Origin: a virus
Strand: one strand, 5' to 3'
DNA: 22,589 bases
IMG/VR virus record: IMGVR_UViG_3300033153_003954
Span: 1-22,589 of that record
Positions 187 to 19,917 of this stretch are shown in pieces. A program made the translations under genes and the position numbers. Under the pieces are notes generated by a model. It was not told the origin of the DNA. It saw nothing but the letters and a program-made list of their open reading frames with translations, and searched no databases. Position 1 is the stretch's first letter. Each line of letters begins with the position of its first letter.

Positions 187-1185
187 TTATGAGAAATCGT
201 TGCAATGTTCTAAGCTGATAATCCAGTTAGAATTGAGAACGATTTGGTCGTGGGTTGCGCGCCAGCCAATTGTACCACGCATGTTCAGTGGGTCAAAGCC
301 GCTTTCGCCTAAACCTTTGACGATGATTTCCGCTACGGACACCGGCTTACCGGTCAGCTCGCCCCAAATCATACCCGGCCCGCCATCGGCGGTCCAGTTC
401 GGTGCCATACCGGACATGCCGGCAAGACCGTAGGACTCAAGCCCGACGAAGAGAGCAGAATAAATATCTTCGGTGCTGTTCTGACCTGCATCAGCCCACT
501 CCTTAACGTTTGAAGACAGGAAGATTTTACAGTTCAAAATCGTTCCAATCAAACCAGAGCGAATGCTGTCCCCACCCTCACGAGTGAAGAGCGCAACGAA
601 TGTAGCATCCTGCATCAAGGTTGCCCATGAATGCGGGTGAAGTAGAACGGGATAGAACCCACCATCGGCGGGTCGGGCCCCTTCAGCTTCAAGGGTAGCA
701 ACATCGTATACAATGTCAGCGTAGGAAATTTTGTCGTTTGTTACATCGAGCTCGTTCCGAGCGGTGGCTCCACCGGCATAGTCGATTGAAGCATTCGCAA
801 CAAGTTCGTCACGGATGATTGTATCAAAAGTCTTACCAGCATGCTCCGCTAGGATGGACGTAGTTTCTGAGATTACAGGGTCGAAACTCTGAATCTTCAT
901 CTTGTCCGTATACTCAACCCACGTACCGTACCACTCAGGGGTGAGTGTGTAGGTCGAGATTTTTGGTCGTTGATGCTCAGTGGGTGTAACGCCTTCTATG
1001 AGAGGGGTATCGGCAACATCACTGAACTGTTCCCATCTACGAATCTCCCAATCTTTCGCCCCGTCAAACGTGGCGGGTCGTCCCCATCGTCCATGAAGCA
1101 AACGAGGCAGAGCTCGTAACATCAAGCGTCTGTCGTATGCCGATTTAATGGTGGCCGACATTGAACCAGTATTAATAGTAGCCAT
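187..1185 (-). CDS. Major capsid protein, N4 gp56-like family
   Basis: This 332-residue protein should form the icosahedral head shell. Several stretches fit the N4 gp56 family of HK97-fold capsid proteins: an N-terminal helix with LPRLLHGRWG (residues 26-35), the segment WEIRRWEQFSDVADTPL then IEGVTP (46-68), the beta strand TLTPEWYGTWVEYTDKM (80-96), and AEHAGKTFDTIIRDEL (113-128). Its length is normal for that family. The frame opens at a GTG at 1209, but the ATG at 1185 sits correctly after GGAGGAAATCTA, so I use that start. It follows the coiled-coil scaffold gene by 50 bases, the usual scaffold-capsid order. The 3' side carries a perfect hairpin. Identity is by recalled family pattern, not by search. 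Confidence 0.92.
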   Translation of the reverse strand: MATINTGSMSATIKSAYDRRLMLRALPRLLHGRWGRPATFDGAKDWEIRRWEQFSDVADTPLIEGVTPTEHQRPKISTYTLTPEWYGTWVEYTDKMKIQSFDPVISETTSILAEHAGKTFDTIIRDELVANASIDYAGGATARNELDVTNDKISYADIVYDVATLEAEGARPADGGFYPVLLHPHSWATLMQDATFVALFTREGGDSIRSGLIGTILNCKIFLSSNVKEWADAGQNSTEDIYSALFVGLESYGLAGMSGMAPNWTADGGPGMIWGELTGKPVSVAEIIVKGLGESGFDPLNMRGTIGWRATHDQIVLNSNWIISLEHCNDFS

Positions 1186-1235
1186 TAGATTTCCTCCGTC
1201 CGACTGCACCGAGGAAACTTACTTAGGGGGTTGTT

Positions 1236-2081
1236 TTAGAACATACCAGCCTTAGTAAAGTCGATGCCTTCGAGTATGTCAGGCGATAATTGTCGCCTTT
1301 CAATCCACGTAAAGATTTTATCTTCCGTGAATTTCTGGCCCGGAAATTGAGCCTCGACTGCACGAATTACATCGCCCATCGACTTTGTTCCAGAGGGCTG
1401 TGCCCCATGTTGGGAAACCACTGGGGGAGCTGTTGGAACAACGGGCGTTTGGGGTGACATCTGGGGTAGTACTTGTATCGGAGTTGCAGTCTCAGTAGTC
1501 TCTTGCTTTCCAGCTTTGTACTGCTCGATTGTAGCAAGGGCCTCTGTTAGCTTGGCATCTCTATCAACATTGCGAGTCTGCAAGGCAGACCATCCAGAAG
1601 CGTACATGGATTCCAAGGTATTGAAATCCAAGTCCTCAAACTTTACACCTTGGGCCATAAACCCTTTGGCGTATCCCATCATACCACGACTCGCCTCAGC
1701 TTCTCCGCGGGCCTGTTGCATCTGGTCCTGAAGTCGTTGATTGCGTTCTCGTGCCACGTCGAGCTGATAGGTTGTCTTCTCTGCATCTTCCATGTTGGCC
1801 ATTGCCGCTGAGTGCATTCGCATCTCAGCTTCTTCAACACGAGAAGCGTAACCTTGCTCTTTCTGGGCATAGGTTGAATCAAGGGTGGAACGTAGACGAT
1901 TCATGTCAGCGTCGTGGCGTTCTTTTGCGTCTGCCGCAGACACTTTCATTTCATCTAATTGTTCCTGTAACTTTCCCGCATCAACCGCTTCTTTTCCGGC
2001 CACCCCTTGCGGAGCTCCTTCGGGCTGGGCCACCACTGGCGTAGCTCCCAACTTTTCGTCGGCGGTAACTGGTAGAGTCAT
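1236..2081 (-). CDS. Probable capsid scaffolding protein
   Basis: This 281-residue protein lies directly upstream of the capsid gene. It has a low-complexity Ala/Gly/Pro/Val start (residues 1-30), a long charged, heptad-like region rich in Glu, Gln, Arg and Met (about 31-134), a Gly/Ala/Met hinge, a Thr/Pro/Gln-rich linker (about 195-232), and a compact C-terminal segment ending DILEGIDFTKAGMF. A helical rod, a disordered linker and a short C-terminal domain next to the capsid gene is the usual form of a phage scaffold, which guides shell assembly and then leaves the prohead. The ATG follows AAGGAGGCACA. A weak promoter-like site lies just upstream. No protease domain is visible, so this looks like scaffold alone rather than a scaffold-protease fusion. 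The role rests on architecture and position. Confidence 0.78.
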   Translation of the reverse strand: MTLPVTADEKLGATPVVAQPEGAPQGVAGKEAVDAGKLQEQLDEMKVSAADAKERHDADMNRLRSTLDSTYAQKEQGYASRVEEAEMRMHSAAMANMEDAEKTTYQLDVARERNQRLQDQMQQARGEAEASRGMMGYAKGFMAQGVKFEDLDFNTLESMYASGWSALQTRNVDRDAKLTEALATIEQYKAGKQETTETATPIQVLPQMSPQTPVVPTAPPVVSQHGAQPSGTKSMGDVIRAVEAQFPGQKFTEDKIFTWIERRQLSPDILEGIDFTKAGMF

Positions 2082-2159: not shown

Positions 2160-5100
2160 CTAACACATTCCATGGCGTTTTTCCCGATGGGCGAATAGGT
2201 CCATTCTTTCTATCTCCTCTATGAACTCTGTACTCTCCGGCATCTTCTTTTTAAGATTTTCTAGAAGGGCCTTATCAGCATCACTCAGGGGGACATTATC
2301 ATTCTTCAAATCATTCACATCTTCTACTAGGGATTCGCCTGCGGCCTCAGCCAATTTTGGGGGCCATACAAGCTTGCCGGTTGTTCCTGCCCTACCAAGC
2401 TGTCCGGGTTTAAGTAGGTATGAAGCATCCATAGTACTGCGCTTACCGAAGCGGATATCTCTAAGGGCGGGACGTTGGGCGGTTGTAGTTCTAGAACTGG
2501 AAGGTGTGTATCCACCACCTCTGGAGGTTGCATAACCACCAGAAGAGGTAGCATCCCCAGTATTCACAGAGTAGTACTCTGCCCAGATGGGATGTGTCAA
2601 AGCAAATTCTTTCTTGAGGTTAGGTACCAACTTGAGCATCTCAGCAAACTGTTCGTTATTCTCTCTGTATGCTTTCTGCCATGCATAGGAGCGGTCCTGA
2701 TAAGTCGAATACTCTTCCCAGAAGCCGGTATATGTACTGGATTCTACAAAGGAGTGATAGTCTTCATTGTCCTGTCGTACCTGCATGCGCTCCTCTAACT
2801 TCTCCGTAGGGAGGTCATCTCTAGTAGTCAATCCAAGAGCGGCCTGAGCCTCTCTCATAGCGGGCATGTTCTTTTCAAGAGCTTCAGCATCCACGAACTC
2901 TACATCCTTATTGGTGAGGGCATCCAAGAATCTCTCATCCCCACCCGCATCTTTGAACTCATTTCTGAACTCATCATGGGAGCCCGGAGGAATAGAGCCG
3001 TATACATCCCACGCCTCTTCCTCTGCTCTGGCGAAAGCGTCCCCTACCTTATTGGCTCTCTGAGCGAACAGCCTGTCCTCTACATCATAAATTTCAGGAT
3101 TGATGGCCTTGAGGATTTCCTTGTCTGTCCACTTGTCTCCATATACGTCATGCATCCATCCTAGGAAGTCTGCCTCACTTGGCCCCATTCCATCTGTCTT
3201 ATTGATTGGATTCTCTCTCCACTCATTGTAGAAATCCCTTTGAGCCATGTCGAAGTCTTCATGGGTCTTACCATCTACAGCCTCAAAATAGGGAGTAAGA
3301 TAGTAGTCATCGAATACTTTGAAGAGGGCCATGTCGAGGGTGTCATTCTCTAAGTCCCACTTCTCGTGGCCTTCTGGGTTTGCTATCTCCAACAGACGTG
3401 CTCCTATTGCATCAACTCCATTGATTGATGGGTCTATGTATTGCAAACTATTCAGCTTCTCCCATAGGGGCTTTGACCCTTCTACTACAAGAGGAAGTTC
3501 CATAGCAATGAACGCTTCCTTACGAGCCTTATAATCCAGATACTCTTCCTTGGTATCATCGTAGGGCTCTAGCGCACTCATGGCTGTATAGAAGAAGATG
3601 TTTTCTATGTCCTTCATAAGAACACGAGCCGGAGTATGCCCAGCGTACCAAGGGCGATTAGCTACATTGTATTGCTCAATTGTATCTATCTCAGCAAATT
3701 GAGTGTAGTAAGTATCATAGATTTCAGACCGCCTGAACCCCGGAGAACCTTCGGGTAGGGCGGCTAGGGCTGTATCTCGCTCTTCTTGGAACACTCCAAC
3801 CTGTTCCCAATACTCACGAGTAACTACTTCTTCTGTTATGAGCTGTGCTACAATCTCATCTCGTTCTGGACCATAGGCCGGGTCGCCGGCTTCAGTCCGA
3901 ACATAGGAGATGGTGTTATGTAAAGTATGGAGATACCCTTCTGGGGTCTCATACCTCTTAGTTCTGTAGTCTGCTACCCGTTGCTCTGCCTCAATGTCCA
4001 TGCCCATTATTTCTGAGCCGAGCAGGTTATTGACAGACCAAGCGGTAGCATTCATATTCATACGACTAAGGATGGCCTCTGCCTGAGCATCAGTAAATTG
4101 CTTGGTATAGAACCCAGTCATGTATCCACCAAGGCTCCTCCATAGCTCTCCATTCTCAAACTCTGCACGAGTATCCAGCCAAAGTTCTTTGGACTGAACT
4201 GTTCCATCGACTTTTTCTTTTACAGCCATTTCAGCGGCTTCAACAATCTTCATTTGCTCATCAAAGTCCGAAACCTGTTGTATCTCCTGCCATGCATTCT
4301 GTCGAACCAAATCCTCTATTAGGTAGGTCTTCCATGATACGTCCGGTGTCCACTTCTCTGGTGCATTTGGATAGACAGTCGCTCTTAGAGCAGACATGAC
4401 ACCACGTTGCCAGTTGGGGGGAACCATAGCTGTCTGGGGAATGATACTCCACTTAGGTCGAATGTTCTCATCTAAAACTCCCCAGTTATAAGCGGCGATA
4501 GTAATGATTGGGGAAGGAGTCAACCCGAATAGAGTGAGTGAGTTGATAGTACGATGCGATAGCTTCTGCATTGGAGTTAGGTGATGGAATGCATCATAGT
4601 ATTCGTCATAGTCAGGGATGGCGTATCTAAAGGAAAGGGGGCTCAGGACATTTACTGCAAGTCCATCAGTGCCGGGGATTCTAATAAAGCCTTTAGACGA
4701 TGGGAGCTGTCTACCATCAGAGGTAATGAACCCTGCCCTGTACATAGTACGTTCTGATAAGTCCATGTACCTGAAATAGAATGTAGCAATCTCAGGGTGC
4801 ATAGCCATAGCTTCAAGCCACATCGGGAGGGAGCGGCTTGGGAACATCCAGAAGGGGAAGATATTGTTCTTCATGAACTGGTCGGCTGGAGTGAACTCAT
4901 TGTAATTGAGCATGGCGTGGTTGGTCTGAGCTACTGCCCCCTCGGTTGAATACCCATGCCAGTTATTGCCCGGAAGATGGCCTGTGCCATAATTGACTGC
5001 CTCTATCCCCTCCACCTGCATATTGGACATCTCATCTCTGAGCCTTATCAAGAGCTCTTCAGTGGCAGAATCAATTTCATGTTCCTGCATAAAGACACTA

Positions 5101-8100
5101 TCCAACCCTCGTTGAGTTTTCTTGGTGCCTATAAGGAACTCTTCCATTTCATCGTAGGCATTCATCACTGCACCTTGTCGGTCCATAGTTGCAGTGCCTT
5201 CAGCGAGATACTGCCTCAAGCCCTTCGGTAACATGCCTTCATCTGGAAGCAAATACTTTGGAGTATTTAAGCCATAGATGGCATTCATTACTTCCAATTC
5301 CTGCTGTACCTGAGCACTTCTCCACTCCAACAGCCTTACCTTTTCATGATTGCCGGCCTTTCTAGCAATCCTTATCTCATCATTCAGGAACTTGAAGTAG
5401 TTGTCTGGAGTATCAAGTACAGGCTTTTTCCTTCTACTGTGCATAGAGTTCAGGGATAGGTCTTGCTTTTGATTGGCATTTGTACGACGCTTGGTTTTGA
5501 TTGTGTCCCAAGATGCATCTAATATTTCATCGTCTACGACAGGATGACCAAACTCATCTACATGCGTAATGCCCCGCTCCACTAGGCGAGGGTCGTCAGT
5601 TATAACAATATTCTCCGGGAACTTTACTTCGGCTCGAAGGGTGGCCCTTGGAATCCTTGGAATGCCATTATTTGTATAGAGGTCATCTATGTAAGTTCCT
5701 GTACGTCGAATGGGAGCCTGTATTTCTGTCTTACCTATAGCCCCAAGTTGAAGTTGTATATCTGATAGCATACTAGGTCTGACATCCCATTTAAGAGCAT
5801 TGTTTCTCTTGAAGTTCTGACCAAAGACATTACCAACTCCAGTTAGAGTTTCATCCTCAAACCTGAGCCGGAAGCCGCCAGCTACAAGAACATCCTCATA
5901 GGAGGCCAAATTTCCATCAGCAAATTTCTTGGCAAGGGCATCGAACTTGCCCGCTCTTACTAAGTCATAGGCTTCATCATACAGATTGGACTTCCAGATA
6001 CCTATGTGCTCACGAATCAGATAATACATTTCAAATCTGCCATGTCTTATCTCGGCATTCATTCCCTCAGCAAGGCCCAAATACTTCTTAGTTAGAAAAT
6101 CAAACATACCTTGGCCGGTTGTTATTCCTTGAATGTCATCCAGATATTCAAGGTACGCCAAGGAACTTACCATATCGTCTAGAGTATATCCACCAGCCTC
6201 TATGGCAAAGGCTATGGCGGGTTCCTCTCTACGAGCTATCATATCTATCAAGAAGCTTTTAGTGTCCCCAAACTTACGGGTTGAATGGGCGAACTGCCTA
6301 CCCATAGCTTTATGCTTCTCAAGTATCTTCTCAATTCGTTCCTGCCATGCAGGAAGCCCCTCTGGCTGAATCCCAAGTCTCTTCTTTACTGCATCTATTC
6401 GACTTACGCCGTATAGCTCTTCTATCTCTGCTTCAAGCTTCTTCTCAAGGGCAAAGCCTTCGGGCTCGATGGCATCATCAAAGAGAGTTTCAGGCATAAG
6501 GGAAGCGTCTTCTTTGAACATTCGCTCCATATCATCTATCTTAGCTTCTATCCCCTTTACGGCATCCCCATCAACTTCAGGAGCATCAAGCAGTTGTTGT
6601 TTCTCTTCTTGTAGTTTCTCATAAGCGTCTTGAAGCTTCTCCCTTTCAGGGTCAACTTCAACCGGCTTTGCATCCTCCGGGAGATACTCAGTTGGAACAT
6701 CAACCTCTTCAAAGGCATCTTCTACTTTCTTTAGTATTCTTTCTTCCCGCGCCTGCATGCGAGAGAGTTCACTACCAGTACCTTCAAGGAACTCATCCAA
6801 GGACTGCCCATAACCACGAGCCCTCAAGAGAGCCTCTACCTCTTCGTCTGTCCCGCCCATCAACCATTTGGTGTAGGGGGAGCCCTCTGACATTCTATCT
6901 GTGAGCAACTGGGATAGATTGAAACGTTCTGGCTTCTTGGGGTCTCCATAAATGAAACGCTCAAGGGTCTTCCTTGTAATCTTTTTATTCCCAACAGTAA
7001 ACCCTTCTGGTAGGGGTCGCCCTTCTTCTATTATATTCAGGATTTCTTTTAGTACTATGTCTCCTTCTTCTCTGGTCAACTTACCGGACAGAGTTTTTGG
7101 CCCCTGAGTAAGTTCCCTGTGCCAATCCGGCCTTACGTCACGAACTGCATATTCTGGAAGTTCTCCCCTAAGAACTCGTGCCGAGTCCACAATCTCATCC
7201 GTAAGGGTGGGGTCGATAACTCTACGCTCAGGATGCAGTACCATAGACCGTACAGCTTCCTCCGGAAGAACCACTCCGGTTCTATCAATTATATGCTGGG
7301 CTCTAATCGCTCCCGCAAGCTCTACATCTCCAACACCCATTTTAACCCCAAGGTGTTCGTCTGGTATCCAAGCTCTAGTACCATCGGTAAAGAGAACATG
7401 GTGCTCCAACATACCATCAACGGTTCTCTTATCTATTCGCTTTGCAATAATCTTTCCGGTGTGGTCGGTATGCGATACAGAGAACTTCTCTCTGATAAAG
7501 AGCTGACCTTCATTCGCCCCAAGGTCTGGATGTGCAGGAGAGACAGGATGCTTGGTGCTCATCTCAAACGCTTCATCTAAATCAAGCTGTGCAGGAGAGA
7601 CACCAAATTCATTTATTTGTGCTTTGGATAGAAAGCCCATAGCTTCCAGAGCTTCAGGTGACACCTCTTCCAAGTTACCAATAGGAACTAGATTTGGTCG
7701 TAAGTCAGAGGCTTCATCCCCGAACTTTACAAGAGCATACTTTTTACCGCCCTCTTCATGGAAACCCATTACTGTACCTGCTCCCCACTCAGAGCCTGCA
7801 CCTGCATGAACCCTGACCACCATATCTTGCTTGATGCCCTTACCGCGCATCTTAGATTTTACAAGAACGCCCTCTTCTATTTCAATAAATTCCCGGCCCT
7901 TCATGACATCCATCAAATCGTCTTGTCTAGTAAGCATATATTTTCTAGAATAGACATCATCAGCGGCAAAGGCTTCAGTCTCTATCTTCGCTAATGGGTC
8001 AGAATACATGTAGTCAATGCTCTCATTGTATTCTGCAATGACTTCCCCAAAGGTCATTTCTTCCATGACAGCTTCCCCAATTTCGAGCTCTTCACCACCT

Positions 8101-11100
8101 AGCTGTCTGGAGGGGACTTCGACTATATTCTCAAGATACTTTGAATCACCAGTGAAAGTAACGGCACCAGCGGGGGGCCTACCCTCAGCCATGAGTGCGG
8201 CTACAAGTTCATCTTCCGTAATTTCAAGGGCCGCAGTCATCTCATCTAGAGCTTGTCGTATCTCAGCATCAACCCCCAAGCCCTTATAGGAGCCTACCAT
8301 ATCCCCTCCGGCCTCTCTCCAACGCTCTAGATTTGACCTGAAGTGTGTCGCACCACTATCAGGCATAGCAGTTTCGCCTGCCTCTTTGAGTTCCTCTACA
8401 ATCTCCTCAACTCTATTAGCTAGACCGTCTTCGTGGTAGGTAAGACCAGAATCAATTTCTTCCCCAGCCGCCGAAACCCTTGTGGCCTCTATGTTTGTTT
8501 CCTGCATCTTGGAGATTTCATCCAGAGGACGTTGTGGTTGTGCTGTCTCTAAGTCATCTGCAAGGGAGCCGACAGGTTTTTGAAGAGTATCAAATCCGTC
8601 ATCAACGCCAATAAACTCGGACTGCCTCTTGAATGTGGCTCTTTCCGCTCCAAGTACTTCTTCTCTAGCTTCTCTCAGAATGCGCTTTACTGCATCATCA
8701 GAAATAACTCCAAACTCTGCAAGCTCATCCATCATTGACTGGGCTACAGAATTAAGAGAAACCGAAGCCCTAGGTCCACCTATTTGTTCGGCTAAGGCTT
8801 TATATGTATCTCTATCATAGAAAGCGGCAATGCCCGGACGTGCTTGGTCTATCTGCCCTGATAGCATGGTATTGATGTATTCGACTGTACGCTCAGGATG
8901 GTAGGGGGCAGTTCCAAGCAGTTCTTCAAATACTTCTTTGACTAGACCATCCGAGAGAAGCCCCAAGTCATCCATACGTGTAGCTATGAGATTCAATACT
9001 TTGGGCCACTCCTCCGCAAAGAGGGGAGCATATACTCTCATTCTCAAGCCAGTCTCGATGTAGGAGTTCATGCCCTTCATTCCAGCCAAGAACTTACCAA
9101 CTGGCCCATTCCCCTTGCTTGCTGTAAGAGCGAATACTTCTGGCAAACTGGTAGGGGCTTTGCCTGATATAAGTAGATGCCCAATGTCAGTCAGCTCTCC
9201 AATCATGGCTCTCATGAAACCGCCGGGGATTTCCTCTGGGAAGTATGGAACCATCTTACTCAAATCAGATATGGTATCAAAGATGTTACCACCATGAACG
9301 ATTGCCCTAAATGAGGAGTCTAGGAAGTTGATGACCGTAAAGCCGGGACGGGCAGTAAGAATACAACTTGCCCATGCTCCCCTGACCTTCCCAACAAAAC
9401 TCAAGTAGTTCCTTATTAATGACCTTGTTGCTTCTTTGCCCTCTAACACTCCCGCCTTCTTAGAGATATAACCCAAGAGCGAATCCTTCAATGGACCGCC
9501 TTTAAATAGCTGGCCTTGGTCCTGCATATACTTCTGAAAAATATCATCTGTGAGAGTAGGGAGAACGTTCTCGGTACGAGTAGCGTACCTGATTGCCTCA
9601 TCTTGTAGCTCAAGGAGCTCCTGCGGTGTTCGGCGGTACCCAACAGGAAGATTCTGGGCGGCGAACAGCTCTTGTAGTCTCTTCGCTTGAACATCATCGG
9701 CGGCTAGAGCTATAAGTCTTATAAGCTCATCCGGTTCACCCAATTCTAGGGCCTTTACTATCCCCTTCTGTCCGAGGATGTGGTCCACCTGTCTAGCACT
9801 CAATCTGAACTTAGAATAATCTGAGGGTTCAAATCCTCCAGATAGAAGTCTACCGAAGTCATCCATGAAGGTGCCAACATCCTGAGAGGTTCTGGCAAAG
9901 TTATACATGAACTCAGTTGTTCTTGCAACTAATTGATGACCCCTAGAAGCTATTGCACTAGCCCTGAAAGCACTGGTTGTATTTCTTGCTCCAGCCGCAA
10001 CCCACGCCCTAGCTCCAGCCGTTCTTCCAAACATCTTAGCTGGGTCATCTACATGGGATAGAACATCAAGTACCAATCCGGGAGCCTTGAATGCCCCCTT
10101 TAGAGGTTCGATAAATATAGCACTTGCCAATTTAGCTGGCATGAGATTGAAGTAATCAAATGTTATTTCCCCAACAAATTCTGTAATTGGGTCAGAATAG
10201 ATTTCAGTAATGCGCTCAATTTCTTGGGGCTCTAGCGGCCTGCCCATCTGAAGGGTTGCATCTGCCAAAGCCACAACCACCAAATCTTGGTAGGTCGAGA
10301 AATTCTCTGGGCCGAACCCTTCCGTATAACGCCATGTGTAATCATTGAAGCGGGAGTCCCTACGAGCAAGGTCCATCTTCTCTCGATATAACTCCTGCAA
10401 TTTTTGGCGGGCCTGTTCTGTGCCCCTAGCAAGCCACCCCTCATCTACCTCGAAGTCCGTTCTAAATCTCTCTTGACGAGCAAGCTGTCCGTCTATTTCT
10501 TGCTGTATCTCTTCGGGCAGAGCTACCCACCTATTCTCTCTTGTTTCTAATTCAGCCTGTATTTCTTCCCAACCAAGACCGCCGGGGCTTATCCTACGTG
10601 CAATAAGCTCCATCCCCTGAACTTGCATGTCACTTGGTCCTTCATCCTTCAATTGTTTCTTGAGCTTGGCCATGGCCCTATTATATGGAATAACATGCTT
10701 TTCAAGGGCATCGTCTTCTTCCAGCCATTCAATTGCTATGAATTGGGGCCAAGTAGAAGCATTGTATCTAAGCTCATCGTAATAATCCAGCTCTTCCCCA
10801 TCCTCCATCTTACGTTCAATCTCTTGCTCTATATATGGAGGTATAGCAGATTCTCCCCCAAGGGCCTGTATTTGTGCGGCGGCTGGAGGAACCCATCCCA
10901 TCCCGGCTGGCTTTCTATCAGTGTATTTCTCCATAGCAATAGAACCGGATATCGGAGAGAAAATCTTTCCTATATCAGAAGCCATTTGTTGGAGGCCCAT
11001 TCTGAGTCCGCGGAATAAGACTTCCCATCCCGGAGAATTAGAAAACTGGTTCATATTAAAAGCTCTCATTTGCCGGAACCAAGATGCAAATGGGTTGTTA

Positions 11101-11954
11101 CCTTCTAGAGGGTTATTGCCTTCAGTGATATTCCTAGGCATGACAGTACCATCATCCTGCACCAAGAATACTGGCAGGTCTGGAACTATCTCTTCCACAC
11201 CCTTCTCTATGTCCTCAAATCTTTTAATTGTCTCTTCGGCTGTTCTTTGCTTTTCAGACAAAGCAAACATTGTATCTATATATTCATCGCTTTCAAATGT
11301 AAGGTCGCCGGGAGGGCCTTCGGCAATAGCCACATGGTCTGCAATCTCCTTACGTATATCTTCGAGATTGACTTCGGCTTCTGCTCTGGCCCGTAGAACT
11401 TCTGGCCCCATCATGGCATCTTGCATAGCTTCAATGCCCTCTGGAGTCATCCTAGCAGGACCGCCCTCAGAGGTACCACCAGAAAGAACATGAAGCTCCG
11501 TCTGGGATAGAGTCTTTAGCGGGTCTTCTATTCCAGCGGCCTTGTACGTTTCTGGGTCAAATCCCCTGCCTCTCCTTGGGTCTTTCTTAGCTATCTCTTG
11601 CCCAAGAATAGCAAGGTCAAAGTCTCTGGCTACATGCGGCATGACAGACTGTACGGCAGGGATGCTTGTCCGTTCAGTCGTCAATCCTCTAGTTTCTGCT
11701 CTATAGAATAGGGGGAAGCTTGTCTGCTCTTCGACTATCTCTTGGGTCTCTGGTTCATAGTACCAACGAGTAAAGTAATCAGGACCAGCAGAAGGAGCCT
11801 CTTGTTGAGGAGGCTGTTGCTGAAGTGTATCTATGTATTCATCAAACCCCGGCTGTTGCCACCAATCTTTGAGCTCTTCTTGAATTGGGGCTGAAGGAGC
11901 CGGGGGTGTATTGAATTTATCCCCGTATTGTCCTTGCTTGAAGCGACGGTCCAT
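2160..11954 (-). CDS. Giant 3264-residue virion-associated protein (possible ejected internal protein)
   Basis: One uninterrupted frame of 9795 bases, about 43% of the window, starts with ATG at 11954 behind GGAGGAG. It lies between the portal-side genes and the scaffold. Visible regions: a Pro/Gln-rich N-terminus (residues 15-60); helical charged stretches; a hydrophobic segment containing ILTARPGFTVINFLDSSFRA (about 864-883), of a kind I recall from other very large phage proteins; two beta-rich modules that look like SH3/Tudor folds (VVRVHAGAGSEWGAGTVMGF, near 1375, and a second near 1490-1530); coiled coil (about 1770-1830); an aromatic segment with FPFWMFPSRSLPMWLEAM (about 2362-2379); and a Gly/Ser/Thr-rich tail near the C-terminus. 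I see no HExxH, lysozyme, nuclease or polymerase motif. Size and position suggest a virion or ejected protein. In phage N4 a protein of similar size is the virion RNA polymerase, but I do not find its signatures here. Function is inferred. Confidence 0.85.
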   Translation of the reverse strand: MDRRFKQGQYGDKFNTPPAPSAPIQEELKDWWQQPGFDEYIDTLQQQPPQQEAPSAGPDYFTRWYYEPETQEIVEEQTSFPLFYRAETRGLTTERTSIPAVQSVMPHVARDFDLAILGQEIAKKDPRRGRGFDPETYKAAGIEDPLKTLSQTELHVLSGGTSEGGPARMTPEGIEAMQDAMMGPEVLRARAEAEVNLEDIRKEIADHVAIAEGPPGDLTFESDEYIDTMFALSEKQRTAEETIKRFEDIEKGVEEIVPDLPVFLVQDDGTVMPRNITEGNNPLEGNNPFASWFRQMRAFNMNQFSNSPGWEVLFRGLRMGLQQMASDIGKIFSPISGSIAMEKYTDRKPAGMGWVPPAAAQIQALGGESAIPPYIEQEIERKMEDGEELDYYDELRYNASTWPQFIAIEWLEEDDALEKHVIPYNRAMAKLKKQLKDEGPSDMQVQGMELIARRISPGGLGWEEIQAELETRENRWVALPEEIQQEIDGQLARQERFRTDFEVDEGWLARGTEQARQKLQELYREKMDLARRDSRFNDYTWRYTEGFGPENFSTYQDLVVVALADATLQMGRPLEPQEIERITEIYSDPITEFVGEITFDYFNLMPAKLASAIFIEPLKGAFKAPGLVLDVLSHVDDPAKMFGRTAGARAWVAAGARNTTSAFRASAIASRGHQLVARTTEFMYNFARTSQDVGTFMDDFGRLLSGGFEPSDYSKFRLSARQVDHILGQKGIVKALELGEPDELIRLIALAADDVQAKRLQELFAAQNLPVGYRRTPQELLELQDEAIRYATRTENVLPTLTDDIFQKYMQDQGQLFKGGPLKDSLLGYISKKAGVLEGKEATRSLIRNYLSFVGKVRGAWASCILTARPGFTVINFLDSSFRAIVHGGNIFDTISDLSKMVPYFPEEIPGGFMRAMIGELTDIGHLLISGKAPTSLPEVFALTASKGNGPVGKFLAGMKGMNSYIETGLRMRVYAPLFAEEWPKVLNLIATRMDDLGLLSDGLVKEVFEELLGTAPYHPERTVEYINTMLSGQIDQARPGIAAFYDRDTYKALAEQIGGPRASVSLNSVAQSMMDELAEFGVISDDAVKRILREAREEVLGAERATFKRQSEFIGVDDGFDTLQKPVGSLADDLETAQPQRPLDEISKMQETNIEATRVSAAGEEIDSGLTYHEDGLANRVEEIVEELKEAGETAMPDSGATHFRSNLERWREAGGDMVGSYKGLGVDAEIRQALDEMTAALEITEDELVAALMAEGRPPAGAVTFTGDSKYLENIVEVPSRQLGGEELEIGEAVMEEMTFGEVIAEYNESIDYMYSDPLAKIETEAFAADDVYSRKYMLTRQDDLMDVMKGREFIEIEEGVLVKSKMRGKGIKQDMVVRVHAGAGSEWGAGTVMGFHEEGGKKYALVKFGDEASDLRPNLVPIGNLEEVSPEALEAMGFLSKAQINEFGVSPAQLDLDEAFEMSTKHPVSPAHPDLGANEGQLFIREKFSVSHTDHTGKIIAKRIDKRTVDGMLEHHVLFTDGTRAWIPDEHLGVKMGVGDVELAGAIRAQHIIDRTGVVLPEEAVRSMVLHPERRVIDPTLTDEIVDSARVLRGELPEYAVRDVRPDWHRELTQGPKTLSGKLTREEGDIVLKEILNIIEEGRPLPEGFTVGNKKITRKTLERFIYGDPKKPERFNLSQLLTDRMSEGSPYTKWLMGGTDEEVEALLRARGYGQSLDEFLEGTGSELSRMQAREERILKKVEDAFEEVDVPTEYLPEDAKPVEVDPEREKLQDAYEKLQEEKQQLLDAPEVDGDAVKGIEAKIDDMERMFKEDASLMPETLFDDAIEPEGFALEKKLEAEIEELYGVSRIDAVKKRLGIQPEGLPAWQERIEKILEKHKAMGRQFAHSTRKFGDTKSFLIDMIARREEPAIAFAIEAGGYTLDDMVSSLAYLEYLDDIQGITTGQGMFDFLTKKYLGLAEGMNAEIRHGRFEMYYLIREHIGIWKSNLYDEAYDLVRAGKFDALAKKFADGNLASYEDVLVAGGFRLRFEDETLTGVGNVFGQNFKRNNALKWDVRPSMLSDIQLQLGAIGKTEIQAPIRRTGTYIDDLYTNNGIPRIPRATLRAEVKFPENIVITDDPRLVERGITHVDEFGHPVVDDEILDASWDTIKTKRRTNANQKQDLSLNSMHSRRKKPVLDTPDNYFKFLNDEIRIARKAGNHEKVRLLEWRSAQVQQELEVMNAIYGLNTPKYLLPDEGMLPKGLRQYLAEGTATMDRQGAVMNAYDEMEEFLIGTKKTQRGLDSVFMQEHEIDSATEELLIRLRDEMSNMQVEGIEAVNYGTGHLPGNNWHGYSTEGAVAQTNHAMLNYNEFTPADQFMKNNIFPFWMFPSRSLPMWLEAMAMHPEIATFYFRYMDLSERTMYRAGFITSDGRQLPSSKGFIRIPGTDGLAVNVLSPLSFRYAIPDYDEYYDAFHHLTPMQKLSHRTINSLTLFGLTPSPIITIAAYNWGVLDENIRPKWSIIPQTAMVPPNWQRGVMSALRATVYPNAPEKWTPDVSWKTYLIEDLVRQNAWQEIQQVSDFDEQMKIVEAAEMAVKEKVDGTVQSKELWLDTRAEFENGELWRSLGGYMTGFYTKQFTDAQAEAILSRMNMNATAWSVNNLLGSEIMGMDIEAEQRVADYRTKRYETPEGYLHTLHNTISYVRTEAGDPAYGPERDEIVAQLITEEVVTREYWEQVGVFQEERDTALAALPEGSPGFRRSEIYDTYYTQFAEIDTIEQYNVANRPWYAGHTPARVLMKDIENIFFYTAMSALEPYDDTKEEYLDYKARKEAFIAMELPLVVEGSKPLWEKLNSLQYIDPSINGVDAIGARLLEIANPEGHEKWDLENDTLDMALFKVFDDYYLTPYFEAVDGKTHEDFDMAQRDFYNEWRENPINKTDGMGPSEADFLGWMHDVYGDKWTDKEILKAINPEIYDVEDRLFAQRANKVGDAFARAEEEAWDVYGSIPPGSHDEFRNEFKDAGGDERFLDALTNKDVEFVDAEALEKNMPAMREAQAALGLTTRDDLPTEKLEERMQVRQDNEDYHSFVESSTYTGFWEEYSTYQDRSYAWQKAYRENNEQFAEMLKLVPNLKKEFALTHPIWAEYYSVNTGDATSSGGYATSRGGGYTPSSSRTTTAQRPALRDIRFGKRSTMDASYLLKPGQLGRAGTTGKLVWPPKLAEAAGESLVEDVNDLKNDNVPLSDADKALLENLKKKMPESTEFIEEIERMDLFAHREKRHGMC

Positions 11955-11957
11955 CTA

Positions 11958-12257
11958 TTACTCCTCCGCTTTTAGGTTTACTATTGCCTCTTCCTCTTCC
12001 TTTGTGGTAGGGGTAGCGTTCTTAATATTCTGCTGGTCTTTCTTTGCTGACTGCTTCTTGGATGTATTATCTTCTTTCTTTTTCGCTGGGGCCGATTTAG
12101 TTTCAATCTCCTTCATAAGCAATACAACCAAATCATTGCTTTGCTGTACGGCCTGAATCGCCTTGAAGCCTTTACTTCCAAGGGAATCTAAATTACCGAG
12201 TGGTCTGCCTGAAGCACGAAGGGGTACACGTTCCATCTTATATTCGTAACGAACCAT
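11958..12257 (-). CDS. Small DUF4177-like protein with basic disordered tail
   Basis: The protein has 99 residues from the ATG at 12257, which follows AAGGAGAGACAA; a longer frame from a GTG at 12332 overlaps the previous gene and has no such site. The first 50 residues (start MVRYEYKMERVPL, then LDSLGSKGFKAIQAV, then DLVVLLMKE) fit the pattern of DUF4177: a short beta strand, a helix with L..LG..G, and a closing strand ending in a charged residue. DUF4177 proteins are small with no known activity. The second half is Lys/Ala/Thr/Glu-rich and probably unfolded. It ends three bases before the giant gene's ATG (TAATAGATG), so the two are likely made together. The family call is moderate and made from memory. 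Confidence 0.75.
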   Translation of the reverse strand: MVRYEYKMERVPLRASGRPLGNLDSLGSKGFKAIQAVQQSNDLVVLLMKEIETKSAPAKKKEDNTSKKQSAKKDQQNIKNATPTTKEEEEAIVNLKAEE

Positions 12258-12267
12258 TTGTCTCTCC

Positions 12268-13365
12268 TTAAAAGAATAAGTTTTTGTTTTGTCTTCCGAA
12301 CTGATAATCGCCAGCCTGTGTACGTGACGCACTAGGCGGTAGATTTGTATGGAATGGATTTGCTAGAGCTTGAGCCATCTGGCTGAAAGCTCCGAGCTCT
12401 CCGCCCTGACTCATCGCCAACATTGGGTCGAGAGCCCCCAATATCTGCTCCCGCTCCGCACGAGATGCCGGACCTGAACCAGCCTCTCCAAGGGTACCTG
12501 CGATTTCTTGTAAGTATTGATACCCCGGACCAAACTCATGGACATTACCACCAACCGTAGCTTCTCTCATCATACTAAGGGCATTGAGGGCTTGGTCTGA
12601 CCTCTCCCTTGAGAACCTATCCATATCTATAGTTCCGGGGCCGGTCTGCCCAAGAGCCGCCTGCTGTTCGCTAATCATCGGGTCAAAGGAGCCCTGCATA
12701 GTCGGACCACCAAGCATGTCTTCCCGTTCCCCAAATTTAGTTGAGTATAAATCCCAAGGGTTGGCATTTTGTTCGTGACTGCCCCATGTGGAATATAATT
12801 GCTTAGCCATAGTACGAGCATCTTCCTCGCTTAGAGACCCACTTCCTATGAGTGCGTTCATCATGAGGGTAGCGGCCACATCTGGCCTACCAAAATTTTC
12901 TGAGTTTTTTACTGTGAATGGTCTCCACCAATCAGGGCCCTCGCCTCCAACTTGATAATCTCCAACTATCCATTCACGGGGGGTTTGTGAAGCACCGCCG
13001 CCCACTCCGCCGGAATCCCAAACTCCAACCCCGCCGTCTTCCTGTTGGGCAGAAAGGCTGGGAAAGTTCATAAAATTCGTTCCTATACCAAAATCAGTAT
13101 TACGGCCATCTTCCCCGTAGCCTAAAACATCTTGAGCCGATACAGTAAATGTAGAATCCCAAATGCCTGCCCCCGGCGTACCCTCCGGGTAGACCTGATT
13201 GAATGTATAAGAATCAGCATTGCCGGGAATATATGCATTAGTGTTACTTGGATTATTTACTGAAGTAGGAAAATATGTTACTTCTTCAATATAATCAGCT
13301 GGGTTATAGGTACTGCCATCTAAGATTGAAGCTAAATTAAATTCGTCCTCGAATGGTCCGGCCAT
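12268..13365 (-). CDS. Unidentified Gly/Ser-rich head-module protein
   Basis: A 365-residue protein I do not recognise. The N-terminal half is rich in Asn, Gly, Ser, Thr and aromatic residues (SVNNPSNTNAYIPGNADSY; GGVGVWDSGGVGGGASQTP near 112-130) and looks beta-rich or loosely folded. The C-terminal half is more helical (VAATLMMNALIGSGSLSEED; then SDQALNALSMMREATVGG; then GELGAFSQMAQALANPF) and ends with NLFF. It has no signal peptide, transmembrane segment or enzyme motif. Its ATG overlaps the stop of the 69-residue gene as TAATG. Its place between portal and giant protein makes a virion role likely, for example a connector, tail-tube or internal protein, but the sequence does not say which. 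Confidence 0.85.
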   Translation of the reverse strand: MAGPFEDEFNLASILDGSTYNPADYIEEVTYFPTSVNNPSNTNAYIPGNADSYTFNQVYPEGTPGAGIWDSTFTVSAQDVLGYGEDGRNTDFGIGTNFMNFPSLSAQQEDGGVGVWDSGGVGGGASQTPREWIVGDYQVGGEGPDWWRPFTVKNSENFGRPDVAATLMMNALIGSGSLSEEDARTMAKQLYSTWGSHEQNANPWDLYSTKFGEREDMLGGPTMQGSFDPMISEQQAALGQTGPGTIDMDRFSRERSDQALNALSMMREATVGGNVHEFGPGYQYLQEIAGTLGEAGSGPASRAEREQILGALDPMLAMSQGGELGAFSQMAQALANPFHTNLPPSASRTQAGDYQFGRQNKNLFF

Positions 13366-13575: not shown

Positions 13576-15444
13576 TTAGGCCATCAACTGGGGGGTTGCC
13601 CCTGTCATCTGATTCATAGCAGAATTGATATCCTGCCCCGGAGGCTCTCTACCCTCAGCTTGAGGAGTTGCCTCTCCAGTGGCAGATTGAGTTCCTGTTT
13701 TCTGTTCGGGTTTGGGAGGTCCGGGAGCTTGATTTGGATTTCCTCCCTTACTCTGTTCCATAGCCATGAGGGTCATAACCGCCGCCTCATCCCCCATCTT
13801 CGCCCTCTCCATCAGGTTCTTTCTAATCTGGTATTCTATCACAGAGGGATGACGCTCTGCCATCTGCCGCAGTATTCTCTTATTCTCATCATCCGGTTGG
13901 TCAATATCCCAGAACCGTTCCATAATGGTCCAGTCTGAAAGCGTACCTTTGGCCTGTGTGCCCATTGCCGCATTGCGAACATCGTCGCCCGGATACTTGG
14001 GCTTCAGCTTCGCCCGTACCAGATACTTACTGAAATCGTCAGTCACAATCTGGTCTGCGAAGTCCTCCCCTTTGAGGCTACCATACACACGCACAAGGGA
14101 GCCTGCGCCGAACTTTTCTGTTAGGCGGAGCATCTTTCTAGCCCAACTGGACCACAACAAGTTTAGTGCTCGTACCGGCTGTTCAAGCTTGATTTTGTTG
14201 GCATCCCCTATCTGAGATAGGGCATAGCCAGAAGCCGCTCCGCCAGTGAGGTCTTGCTCTGAGAAGCCGGCTTGCTGTAGTCTGGTTCGGAAGTACTGTA
14301 TCTGTTGGTCTACGTCTGGGGGGTTCCCCGGCCATTTCGGGAAAGATATGTCCTCGTCTGGTAGAAGAGGAATATGACCACCAAGGGCGGGGTCAATTTC
14401 AATAACCCTTCCAGCCATCGCTCTTGTAACAAGCGGGAGGCTAGATAATAGAGTAATTTGGCGTTGTCGCCTGTTGATAGCATTTTCCATCATCTCCAGT
14501 GTGGATTCAATCGGGCGGATAATGCTGTGTGTCCAACCTTCTGGTTTGTCTTTATCTACTGACTTGTAGAACCCTATACTATAAGGAAGGTCATCATAGG
14601 GAGTGTCCTGTAATTCCCATATGAATTGTCGTTCAAATACTAGAGCTCTCTGGACCACCCACTTTGTTTCCATCTCTTGTGGCTTCCCAAGCATCTTCGC
14701 CATCATATCCTGTTCTTTGGGCTGTTCTGTCTGTGCCCACTTCCAGCAGTCTATGAGTTCCCCTTTTAATTTGCGCTTTGCTCTTTCATCCTGATGGTCA
14801 TATTGCTTGATGCGCACCTGATACTGAGCTTCCACATCATATACGGTCATCTCTTCTATTCGATAGACTTGCCCCCACCTGCGGGGCCCGCCCATCACCC
14901 AGAAAGTTTTAAGTGGGTCAATGACCTGAGTTCGTATGGGGGATTCCATAAATCCCTGAATTGGTTTGGCTCCCTGCTCCTTGTCTGGAACCTGAGCCTC
15001 AAATGCCAACTCTTGGGCTAATATATCATCCCAAGGGGAATAGAGCACAGATGAGCCATCTCGTACAAGATTAAAGACAGCCTCATAAGGGATGTCTAGT
15101 TCTTCTCGTTCACTATTGATTTCAATAACACCAGCGATGTATTTCTCAATTTTACCTGTAGTTTCTCCCTCCATCACGTCTGGAGTGAAGCCCATCGCTT
15201 TCCACTCTAAATCATTGGCAAGAATGATACCAACGGCGGTATCTACTAAGTTTGTTGGAGTTGGGTCTTCGTACCGTTCCTCGCCGGGCAGGGCCTCTCC
15301 CCTTTCGGCATAATGGTCAAAATCATACCACTTCCTCCACTTCTCAATATTCTTATGCCATCCCTCGCAGGATTTCTTAGCTTCGCTATAATCCTCTAAG
15401 ATTTCAAGCAGGGCCATATCAGTCGTGATATCTCTAAGTGCCAT
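13576..15444 (-). CDS. Portal protein
   Basis: This 622-residue protein is expected to form the dodecameric ring at one head vertex through which DNA is packaged and released. It follows the terminase gene by one base (TAATATG), the usual terminase-portal order. Portal-like regions: PTPTNLVDTAVGIILANDL (61-79) in the N-terminal domain; IDPLKTFWVMGG in the wing region; an Arg-rich helix with ENAINRRQRQITLLSSLPLV (about 321-340), placed like the stem or long helix; and FSEQDLTGGAASGYALSQ (about 391-408) ahead of helical crown-side sequence. The last 60 residues are Pro/Gln/Gly-rich and probably disordered. The length suits portals of podovirus-like phages. Assignment is by overall pattern and position; I cannot tell the subfamily. 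Confidence 0.88.
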   Translation of the reverse strand: MALRDITTDMALLEILEDYSEAKKSCEGWHKNIEKWRKWYDFDHYAERGEALPGEERYEDPTPTNLVDTAVGIILANDLEWKAMGFTPDVMEGETTGKIEKYIAGVIEINSEREELDIPYEAVFNLVRDGSSVLYSPWDDILAQELAFEAQVPDKEQGAKPIQGFMESPIRTQVIDPLKTFWVMGGPRRWGQVYRIEEMTVYDVEAQYQVRIKQYDHQDERAKRKLKGELIDCWKWAQTEQPKEQDMMAKMLGKPQEMETKWVVQRALVFERQFIWELQDTPYDDLPYSIGFYKSVDKDKPEGWTHSIIRPIESTLEMMENAINRRQRQITLLSSLPLVTRAMAGRVIEIDPALGGHIPLLPDEDISFPKWPGNPPDVDQQIQYFRTRLQQAGFSEQDLTGGAASGYALSQIGDANKIKLEQPVRALNLLWSSWARKMLRLTEKFGAGSLVRVYGSLKGEDFADQIVTDDFSKYLVRAKLKPKYPGDDVRNAAMGTQAKGTLSDWTIMERFWDIDQPDDENKRILRQMAERHPSVIEYQIRKNLMERAKMGDEAAVMTLMAMEQSKGGNPNQAPGPPKPEQKTGTQSATGEATPQAEGREPPGQDINSAMNQMTGATPQLMA

Positions 15445-15445
15445 A

Positions 15446-16903
15446 TTAGTTCCTCAAGGCGGCTGGTAGGTCTTCTTCTCGATAGACCTTCTTCTTCACC
15501 GCAGTCATGTCTCCAAAGGGGGATGTAATCTTTATGGTCTCAGATGTGTCCACCCCACCTCTCTTTACTGCATCATATGCGGCCATCGCAAGAGCCGTCG
15601 CCGCATCAATCTTATGCTTGCTACGTTTGGTGGTCTTGGTGAGCTTCATCCCCCGGCCTTTTATCTCGGCCTTAGCAAACTGGATGTGAGCCCTTAAATC
15701 ATCATCCTTGTAGGTCTCGAACATCCCACCCTTCATAATATCGTACAGATGGTGAGTTGCCCCTGTCATGTTGGTTGCTGTCTGTGGGAACTCCACTACT
15801 CGGAATCCCTGCTTCTCTAGGTTGGTCATAGCCTGATGTAGCTGGGTAGGGTCGTAAACTATTGCATTTACCTGACACAGCTTCGACACGTCTTTTATGT
15901 AGTCTTCTACTACAGTCAGGTCGAATCTTTCTGTCTTACTTGGAACCCATATCCTATGGAAGGCTATGCCGACTTTTACTCGCTCTGGGTCGTAATAGCA
16001 TCCCACAATAGCGGTACAGTCGCTCTTAGTTCCTGCATCCACTCCAATAGAGATTGGATACTGCCTGTACTTGCTATCCGGCTGATAAATAACCGGACCA
16101 TCTAATATTGCCGCCTCATCCCAATACTTGATAGGAATGAACTCTTCTTCCGATGTTACCCACTGATTACGATGCAACCGAAGGAAATCCATCGGGCGCA
16201 GGGTAGTCATTTGTTCTTGGTAATATTCGTCCGTTTGCCACGGCATACGCGGTTCAGTATCCCAATAAACAAAAGTACGGCCAGATGAACGACACACAGG
16301 CTCACCGTCTGCATCCACCAAATGGGCCAGTTCTGGTACAGGAGTTCCATTTACAAACCCCAATTCGTACAAATCCCATAATAGCTCCGATTCACCCTCA
16401 TATCCAGCGTATGTTACAATAACTCGTAAGGGGCTCTTGACTGTAGGCGGAGGTGTCATCTCTGCCCATAGCCGTCTGCTACCTTCTGAGGTGTATCCCC
16501 ATAACTCATCCCAGATAGTGAGAAACTGCCGTCCACCCGCTACCGTCTTGGCTTCACTTGCAATGGCCCTAGTAAATGCACCACTGGGCCATATTACTTG
16601 TGCTCTCTGCGTTGCTATCCCACGATGACGGGCGTGATACGCTATATCCGTATAGGCGCGGGCAATTGAATGTTCAAAGGCATTTGCGAGGGAGTAAGCT
16701 TCATTTCCTTGCGGCCCTTGCTCTCCTGCATAGGCTCCTATCGCCGCGGCGATGGTTGTCTTGCCGGACTTCTTAGGACAAGAATATATGATTGTAGTAT
16801 AAGGAAAGATGTCATTCTCGTCCGGGGTAAGGCAATGCCTGAAGATGTCCTCTTGATGTTGTTCTAAGGTAAGGGTTCCTTCGTACACCCATCCCTTCTC
16901 CAC
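15446..16903 (-). CDS. terL: Terminase large subunit (packaging ATPase and nuclease)
   Basis: It packages DNA into the prohead by ATP hydrolysis at the portal and cuts the concatemer. Numbered from the GTG at 16903 (485 residues): Walker A CPKKSGKTT (42-50), Walker B with the catalytic acid FLTIWDE (127-133), the coupling motif VIVTYAG (161-167), then an RNase H-like nuclease with acidic residues in GVDAGTKSD (287-295), IVYDPTQ (348-354) and KIDAATALAMAAYDA (431-445). Both domains appear complete. The GTG has no good ribosome binding site, and the frame stays open upstream with plausible sequence (FCDWLEEDKFYIKDDWD). The true start is probably the ATT at 16966, giving 506 residues (see the separate entry). 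I keep GTG as the conservative boundary. A small subunit is not recognisable nearby. Confidence 0.96.
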   Translation of the reverse strand: MEKGWVYEGTLTLEQHQEDIFRHCLTPDENDIFPYTTIIYSCPKKSGKTTIAAAIGAYAGEQGPQGNEAYSLANAFEHSIARAYTDIAYHARHRGIATQRAQVIWPSGAFTRAIASEAKTVAGGRQFLTIWDELWGYTSEGSRRLWAEMTPPPTVKSPLRVIVTYAGYEGESELLWDLYELGFVNGTPVPELAHLVDADGEPVCRSSGRTFVYWDTEPRMPWQTDEYYQEQMTTLRPMDFLRLHRNQWVTSEEEFIPIKYWDEAAILDGPVIYQPDSKYRQYPISIGVDAGTKSDCTAIVGCYYDPERVKVGIAFHRIWVPSKTERFDLTVVEDYIKDVSKLCQVNAIVYDPTQLHQAMTNLEKQGFRVVEFPQTATNMTGATHHLYDIMKGGMFETYKDDDLRAHIQFAKAEIKGRGMKLTKTTKRSKHKIDAATALAMAAYDAVKRGGVDTSETIKITSPFGDMTAVKKKVYREEDLPAALRN

Positions 16904-18176: not shown

Positions 18177-18306
18177 TGAATATCCCCAAAATCATCAATG
18201 CAACCACAAGGGTGAGCATACTACCAATCCAGAATAGCATAAGCTCCAAGGCCACGTCCTTATCATCCCCGAAGCTCTCTCTGAGCTTCTTCGTGTACTT
18301 ACTCAT
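18169..18306 (-). CDS. 45-residue single-pass membrane protein
   Basis: A short gene between two overlapping neighbours. ATG at 18306 follows GGAGGTAGGAG, and the stop overlaps the GTG start of the zinc-ribbon gene. The first 20 residues are charged (MSKYTKKLRESFGDDKDVAL), followed by one hydrophobic helix (about 20-43: LELMLFWIGSMLTLVVALMI), ending GIFSG. It should be a small inner-membrane protein with its charged N-terminus probably in the cytoplasm. Such peptides can be holin-like, superinfection-exclusion or membrane-anchoring proteins. No lysis gene is next to it, so I assign no role. The ribosome binding site and the overlaps on both sides support a real gene. Confidence 0.72.
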   Translation of the reverse strand: MSKYTKKLRESFGDDKDVALELMLFWIGSMLTLVVALMILGIFSG

Positions 18307-19036
18307 CTCCTACCTCCGCCAATACCTGCAACTCTACCTTATTGTGTTCATCATCTGGCCCATGCACCGCCTGACCGACCTCTATCACTCTAAACCCTGC
18401 ATTCTCTACAATATCATGCAAGGTGTGGGTAGTAAACCCAAACAAGTGGTGAGGACTTAGAACTCCCTTGGAGGTGCTAAAGCTTGGAACCTCCATAAAC
18501 AATGTTCCGGAGCATACCTTCCTGATAGCCTTTAGATATCCAACAGGGTCGGTAACATGCTCAAGGGTGTGAATGCAAGTTACAAGGTCATATGTCTCCT
18601 CTATCTCATCCAAGCTCTTATGGACTTTATATCCATCGGCAAAGTCTCTTATGTCGCATCCTTCAGAGACACACCCGTACTTCTCAGAAACTGCATCTAG
18701 CAATCCCCCATAGCAACATCCTATATCCAAATGCCTAAGAACTTCAGGGAATAGCAAGTTTTTTGTTATAAGCCTAGCCGCCCGCTCGGCTTCCCTCTTC
18801 TTCAGTCCGTCTACTCCCCAATGGCCTTCCGTAAGGGGGGTATAGAATTCGTTGTAATATTTGTCTACTTCTTCTTCATCTACAGGATGGCGGTCTGCAT
18901 AGACTATCCCACACCTACAAATCCAAAAATTAATAAACATTTCTCCTAGCTGTGACTGAAGGAAAAAATGCTTTTTATTGTCCCCGCACACAGGACAGAG
19001 TTCTATTGCCTTCCATTTGATTAATAGTTCACTCAT
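18299..19036 (-). CDS. Class I SAM-dependent methyltransferase with N-terminal zinc site
   Basis: A 245-residue protein. Four cysteines near the start (C14-x2-C17 in LCPVCG and C40-x-C42 in ICRCG) make a zinc-binding knuckle like that preceding sugar C-methyltransferases and related enzymes. Then follow motif I for SAM, HLDIGCCYGG (102-111), an acidic motif-II region CDIRD (127-131), the post-II segment DLVTCIHTLEHVTDP (150-164) and HLFGFTTHTLHDIVENAGF (197-215), all typical of the Methyltransf_23 type. The acceptor is likely a sugar or nucleotide sugar because the gene follows a glycosyltransferase, with a four-base ATGA overlap. Substrate and product are inferred from the neighbourhood, not from residues. 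Confidence 0.85.
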   Translation of the reverse strand: MSELLIKWKAIELCPVCGDNKKHFFLQSQLGEMFINFWICRCGIVYADRHPVDEEEVDKYYNEFYTPLTEGHWGVDGLKKREAERAARLITKNLLFPEVLRHLDIGCCYGGLLDAVSEKYGCVSEGCDIRDFADGYKVHKSLDEIEETYDLVTCIHTLEHVTDPVGYLKAIRKVCSGTLFMEVPSFSTSKGVLSPHHLFGFTTHTLHDIVENAGFRVIEVGQAVHGPDDEHNKVELQVLAEVGDE

Positions 19037-19917
19037 AGTACAAGCTCCATTTCGATTGAATCATTCACTATCTGCTGGTCCATTACATTGCCCATATGTC
19101 GGCAGGTTCTATCAAAGGTACAGAGTTGGAGGATACCGGCATCATCCATAGCCACATCCCATTCTCTCATCATACCCATGAGCTTATTGGTAGGTTCTGG
19201 AAGATGTTTCAACGCTTCCTTCCTATTTGCAAGAAACTGCATGTGATGGCCCACTGCCCACGCCCATGTTCCATCAAAATTCACTATGATAGGCTTTACT
19301 TCTTCCTTCTCTACTATCTTCAAATACTGCTTAGGAGAGATGCCTCTACACATCCCATCATCCTCTAACCACCTCATAGGGTACTCTTTCCCTATCTTGC
19401 CAATACTAACATCAAAGGATGGGCTGGCTTTCATAGCTTCCTGTCCTATCGGATAGAATTTGAATTTTGTGAGAACGGGAGAACCTGTTACAAGTTCGCA
19501 GGCCGGAATTTCTAGTACTTCCATTTGATGGACTAACCAATCAGGATAGAACAGTACATCATCATCTGTGACCCCTATAAACTCACTTTGGACAGAATTA
19601 AACAAAAACCTCAGTCCTTCCAGTTTGCCCATGTTATAGCCCATAAAATGTACGTTAGTTATCCATCCGGAATCTAGCCATGAACCTAGCTTCTGTTTCC
19701 ATTCATTGCAAGAGCTCTGGTCCAACACTACTACATCAAAAATCCTATCCTCTCCTGCATTGGTTATCATGCTGTTCAAGCTGAGCTCTGTGATATTCAT
19801 GCGGTCTTTATAGTATCCAGCCAAATGAGGGATATGCGTTATCATACAGAGGGTTATGCGCCTTGGTGGGCGTGTATTCAATAATTCTCTCTGGGGGGAC
19901 TTTCCAAGCCTTGCCAT
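19033..19917 (-). CDS. Glycosyltransferase, GT-A fold, family 2-like
   Basis: A 294-residue protein. After a basic N-terminus comes the first strand of a GT-A fold (RITLCMITHIPHLAGYY, 20-36), a helix with LSLNSMITN, a second strand DVVVLDQSS (61-69), the region NMGKLEGLRFLF (95-106), and the metal/nucleotide-sugar motif FIGVTDDDVLFYPDWL (113-128), where D118-D120 is the DxD-type triplet. This order matches family 2 transferases, which add a sugar from a UDP- or other nucleotide donor. It is soluble, with no membrane helix. Its ATG overlaps the stop of the acyltransferase as TAATG, and its own stop overlaps the next methyltransferase. Donor and acceptor are unknown; the neighbours point to building or decorating a glycan. 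Confidence 0.83.
   Translation of the reverse strand: MARLGKSPQRELLNTRPPRRITLCMITHIPHLAGYYKDRMNITELSLNSMITNAGEDRIFDVVVLDQSSCNEWKQKLGSWLDSGWITNVHFMGYNMGKLEGLRFLFNSVQSEFIGVTDDDVLFYPDWLVHQMEVLEIPACELVTGSPVLTKFKFYPIGQEAMKASPSFDVSIGKIGKEYPMRWLEDDGMCRGISPKQYLKIVEKEEVKPIIVNFDGTWAWAVGHHMQFLANRKEALKHLPEPTNKLMGMMREWDVAMDDAGILQLCTFDRTCRHMGNVMDQQIVNDSIEMELVL

Follow-up and report, generated by a model that had tools for sequence, protein, structure and literature searches.

In portal-terminase phages, single polyvalent proteins bring together ART, MPTase, GGDEF and SWI2/SNF2 domains, and Iyer et al. (2017) have argued that the phage polyvalent proteins are likely packaged (PMC5512222). In phage N4, the giant ejected protein has been described as consisting of domains loosely joined in a chain (PMC12633501). 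MuF-type head proteins fused to effectors, such as SPP1 gp7 and Mu gp30, adjoin the portal and have a variable effector part that is proposed to be injected. In the present study, we analysed a 22.6-kb IMG/VR virus record, a linear fragment (hereafter the window), and found a gene for a 3264-aa protein, P0001, which is a member of a new head-operon family, in which a conserved frame, probably packaged and ejected, encloses a variable middle carrying putative effector domains.

The giant gene and its head-operon neighbours

The giant protein is encoded on the minus strand by a single open frame (2160..11954, with the ATG at 11954-11952 and the stop at 2162-2160). The base composition predicts about 185 stops over its codons (log10 P of the open frame about -83), and the other five frames across the region contain 92-298 stops each. 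The codon usage of the giant correlates with that of neighbouring phage genes (r 0.89; two shifted frames, 0.16 and -0.08), and a GGAGGAG Shine-Dalgarno sequence is located immediately 5' of the ATG. These data bear out the preliminary description of the DNA, which had reported, with no strand given, an intact frame occupying 43% of the window in the head operon. That the frame is not due to chance is further indicated by profile and portal searches, in which more than 12 uncultivated phage contigs were found to carry a giant in the same slot.

In reading order, the window contains the genes for the terminase large subunit (TerL) and the portal, two genes of 365 and 124 aa, the giant gene, a scaffold-like gene of 281 aa and the gene for a major capsid protein (MCP), which is N4 gp56-like (Table 1). 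The N4-type capsid protein claimed earlier was thus recovered in profile matches, and the position claimed for the giant, between portal and scaffold genes, also held, except that two genes intervene on the portal side and that the scaffold is assigned by position and composition only. The portal orthologue in L003 matched P22_portal (PF16510) with an E value of 4e-5, under its curated cut-off, and phrog_156 with an E value of 8e-10. Upstream of the packaging genes (18299-21581, minus strand), the window also encodes two methyltransferases, the first being of class I (PF13489), together with a family 2 glycosyltransferase (PF00535), a hexapeptide-like transferase and an MptE-like protein, a gene set that is possibly a glycan-modifying cassette.

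Bacillus phage Page (Pagevirus) has TerL, the portal, a scaffold-position gene and an N4-like MCP in the same order, and its MCP is homologous to that of the window (E 8e-35), but it has neither a giant nor the 365- and 124-aa genes, and its scaffold-position gene directly follows the portal. Since Page lacks a giant, such heads can be built without one, although the portal of Page shows only marginal similarity.

Table 1. Coordinates of the giant's segments and of the neighbouring genes in the window, in reading order
Feature	Residues	Position	Strand	Remarks
TerL		15446..16903	-	phrog_9 E 7e-46; PF20441
Portal protein		13576..15444	-	phrog_64 E 1.4e-4 (weak)
365-aa gene between portal and giant		12268..13365	-	C-terminal part conserved; relatives 25-36% identity
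124-aa gene directly upstream of giant		11958..12332	-	Relatives in L047 and L059
N-terminal extension	1-480	10515..11954	-	Hardly any family match before residue ~477; no Pfam match
N-module, conserved frame	481-1115	8610..10514	-	Predicted all-helical (low confidence)
Core motif 1, RPGFTVINFLDSSFR	869-883	9306..9350	-	R, P, N, D and R columns invariant
Variable 'cargo' (815 residues)	1116-1930	6165..8609	-	No relatives found
Possible chromo/SH3-like barrel within cargo	1502-1536	7347..7451	-	E 0.2 to a chromobox chain, not significant
M-module	1940-2040	5835..6137	-	Leave-one-out profile (window excluded) E 8e-5, domain 1962-2035
C-module, best conserved part of frame	2180-3135	2550..5417	-	Predicted all-helical (moderate confidence)
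Core motif 2, FPFWMFPSRSLPMWL	2366-2380	4815..4859	-	Also in G004; weakly in MW202803
Ser/Gly-rich linker	3136-3165	2460..2549	-	Between C-module and tail
C-terminal tail	3166-3264	2163..2459	-	RS..D...L....G..G motif
Scaffold-like 281-aa gene		1236..2081	-	Kept between giant and MCP; function from position and helical composition only
MCP, N4 gp56-like		187..1209	-	PF25209 E 1.5e-9; phrog_1357 E 2.7e-39

A conserved frame with a variable middle

Searches with the whole giant against Pfam, PHROGs and PDB sequences, by tblastn against 50,697 phage records and by peptide patterns against viral contigs gave no match. Because the giant alone was an orphan, the search went through its neighbour genes, and the family was reached through TerL, portal and C-module searches rather than by the whole protein. 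The TerL search led to L003 (contig G001), where TerL is followed by the portal, a 493-aa gene, a 3773-aa giant (P0002) and a scaffold-like gene. The C-terminal 1000 residues of the window giant align with P0002 (27% identity, E 5e-76), as do small N-terminal islands, but the middle does not. Every contig that covers the region has TerL, the portal, a gene of 200-490 aa, the giant, a scaffold-like gene of about 250 aa and the N4 gp56-like MCP in this order. Complete giants are 2515-4380 aa long, and some of the contig pairs bearing them are near-identical (e.g. G007/G008, 99%). A full family member was absent from the 50,697 phage records, and no relative of the giant was found in the GTDB genomes searched, so that no prophage or host was obtained for the family.

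The relatives share 43-51% identity with the window in MCP, 38-46% in TerL (one short fragment apart) and 33-44% in the portal, compared with 24-30% in the C-module of the giant, 16-24% in its N-module and none in the middle, the giant evolving faster than TerL, portal and MCP. In full-length relatives, C-module homology was found with E values of 1e-125 to 2e-60 and the N-module was matched separately, whereas the window giant from about residue 1135 to 1953 is unrelated to every other member.

Several contigs showed further peculiarities. In L059 (5165-13290), a stop divides the giant into parts of 2072 and 632 aa, a new frame beginning 9 bases on, and this split may be natural or a sequence error. 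TerL of L003 (4288-7533, G001) is 1081 aa long, compared with the usual ~485, owing to two in-frame insertions, which look like inteins and fall in the Walker A region (KSGK) and the Walker B region (WDELWGY). L065 (13404-21461; MT835607.1, a human gut phage scaffold) has a 2685-aa open frame downstream of an N4-like MCP match, and this frame did not match the C- or N-module profiles. DUF559 (PF04480, E 2e-5) was recognised in a 1117-aa protein that is encoded downstream of MCP in L027 (7152-10505, minus strand; G010).

The frame, consisting of the N-, M- and C-modules, matches no model in Pfam, and its profiles gave chance matches only against the PDB. Structure prediction followed by Foldseek, the check proposed at the outset, was carried out for the N- and C-modules, and these models, which are weak (mean pLDDT 50 and 63, respectively), gave no significant match, including none to known ejection proteins. 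Internal-virion and tape-measure names from BFVD were dropped, the best E value (0.037) not being significant, and a diguanylate cyclase at residues 1027-1084 was dismissed as a weak PDB-sequence match (E 0.64).

Two core motifs mark the frame, RPGFTVINFLDSSFR in the N-module and FPFWMFPSRSLP in the C-module of the window giant. The two motifs are 1497 residues apart in the window and 812-2452 residues apart in the relatives in which both were located. Both (RPGF..RN, the first being a variant, and PFW.F) also occur in two distant proteins, the 1733-aa protein of G004 and UOF82138 of MW202803.1 ('chromosome segregation', 1312 aa), a distant homologue of the core that is encoded in the circular genome of podovirus ct52p938; in these proteins, however, they are only about 150 residues apart and the large middle is missing. 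G004 further differs from the giants in having a short match only and another gene order. The MW202803 homologue lies downstream of a 'stabilization protein', and podoviruses keep ejection genes in the region downstream of this protein (PMC10386132). The wide spacing in the giants, compared with ~150 residues in the distant proteins, suggests that the giant's middle may have been accommodated inside an older core.

The slot between the conserved modules differs in content in nearly every phage. ART-PolyVal (PF18760) was detected in six of the 14 giants scanned (best E 1.4e-22) and exceeded its curated cut-off in four of 16 records; L054 has two ART regions. A GGDEF domain with an intact GGDEF motif is present near residue 2360 of one giant only (L051:1886-13063; E 1.6e-11), and HExxH segments, which are motifs and not proven peptidases, were found in G001, G008, L048, L051 and L054. 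The G010 giant contains ResIII (E 1e-13), AAA_34/Helicase_C_4 (a Strawberry-notch-type helicase), a weak ParB-like match and an ART-like region. Thus, single chains in relatives contain at least two domains of unrelated function: ParB-like, helicase and ART-like in G010; ART, GGDEF and HExxH in L051; and ART and HExxH in G001. Residues 1642-2975 of a 4117-aa head-operon protein (L040:1972-14325) comprise an ART-like region together with an SF2 helicase of the Strawberry-notch type and a ParB-like stretch.

In the window's middle, neither ART nor HExxH was found, comparison with Pfam and PDB revealed nothing significant, the cargo alone had no match in viral contigs and plasmids, and no two-domain combination was detectable in the window's giant. 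In line with the preliminary description, Pfam, PHROGs, PDB sequences and motif patterns revealed no polymerase, protease, lysozyme or nuclease in the window's copy. The suggestion made there, that the family may lack a described function, is apt for the window's member, and the family is undescribed in everything searched, but the relatives carry described enzyme domains in the middle.

Probable packaging and ejection, and possible cargo delivery

The giants resemble polyvalent proteins in being very long chains of portal-terminase phages and in that relatives of the window giant hold ART-PolyVal, HExxH, GGDEF, SF2 helicase and ParB-like segments in one chain; the window giant itself is encoded by a portal-terminase phage in a packaging/late-gene context. 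It differs, however, in having no recognised catalytic domain, a frame without a Pfam model and a cargo situated inside the frame, between the N- and C-modules. The likeness to MuF-type proteins lies in the place beside the portal and the variable effector part, but the MuF domain (PF04233) was found in none of the 16 records, including the window, with controls working.

From the gene position, the type of cargo and the divergence, we infer that the giant is probably packaged and ejected and that its middle has an effector role inside the host. The earlier view of an internal or ejected virion protein is supported by context: its position is conserved, relatives carry cargo of the delivery type, and the giant diverges rapidly. 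The helical frame (N-, M- and C-modules) would be packed within the capsid close to the portal and would pass into the host together with the DNA or before it, bringing into the cell the middle, whose effector domains may act early in infection. The putative effectors in relatives would be ADP-ribosyltransferases, HExxH segments, diguanylate-cyclase-type GGDEF, and the ParB-like, Strawberry-notch-type helicase and ART combination, and in the window phage the slot would be filled by the unrecognised 815-residue segment.

The giant could instead be a purely structural internal or ejection protein, a component of the core or the DNA ejectosome such as T7 gp15/gp16 or P22 gp16/gp20, with the middle as a fast-evolving spacer, as would agree with the all-helical prediction for the frame, the failure to recognise an enzyme in the window's copy and the existence of nearly cargo-free members (L042, 2515 aa). 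We regard this as unlikely, since several relatives hold enzyme or enzyme-like domains in the slot and members differ in what the variable part is as well as in how long it is. The T7 and P22 proteins named above showed no significant sequence or Foldseek match to the giant, although confidence in the models is low. It is still less probable that the giant is a large late protein that stays unpackaged, e.g. an assembly factor or a late-made intracellular effector; head operons do include scaffold and assembly genes, but the position beside the portal is conserved, MuF-type polyvalent proteins are known there, and the cargo domains are of the kinds that injected proteins carry (PMC5512222). A highly diverged N4-type virion RNA polymerase, to which the preliminary description had drawn a parallel in size, is barely credible: the size is similar (3264 vs 3500 aa) and an N4 gp56-like MCP occurs in the same phage, but similarity to N4 gp50 was undetectable (0.1-0.3% probability in hhalign of both frame alignments; nothing by BLASTP; the Pfam RNA_pol search is insensitive, N4 gp50 itself reaching only E 0.0075), the window giant lacks the motif B and motif C patterns of T7-type polymerases, and in N4 the gene is located downstream of MCP, beside gp51/gp52, whereas the window giant lies upstream, between portal and MCP, so that only the size survives of that parallel. 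The ejected giant of N4 is a precedent for delivering a chain of such size and not evidence for the window's giant.

The cargo kinds are already known, whereas the frame, the fixed slot and the window's middle matched nothing searched. Tentatively, the window's 815-residue middle may be an ejected effector of a kind not yet described, on a general-purpose delivery frame that an uncultivated lineage reloads with different enzymes. In one phage lineage, the exchangeable middle of a conserved frame, always at one place in the head operon, defines a cargo site, and this constancy makes effector discovery systematic, by excising the middle of each member. In addition, the giants offer a testable model for the packaging and delivery of a chain of ~300-480 kDa.
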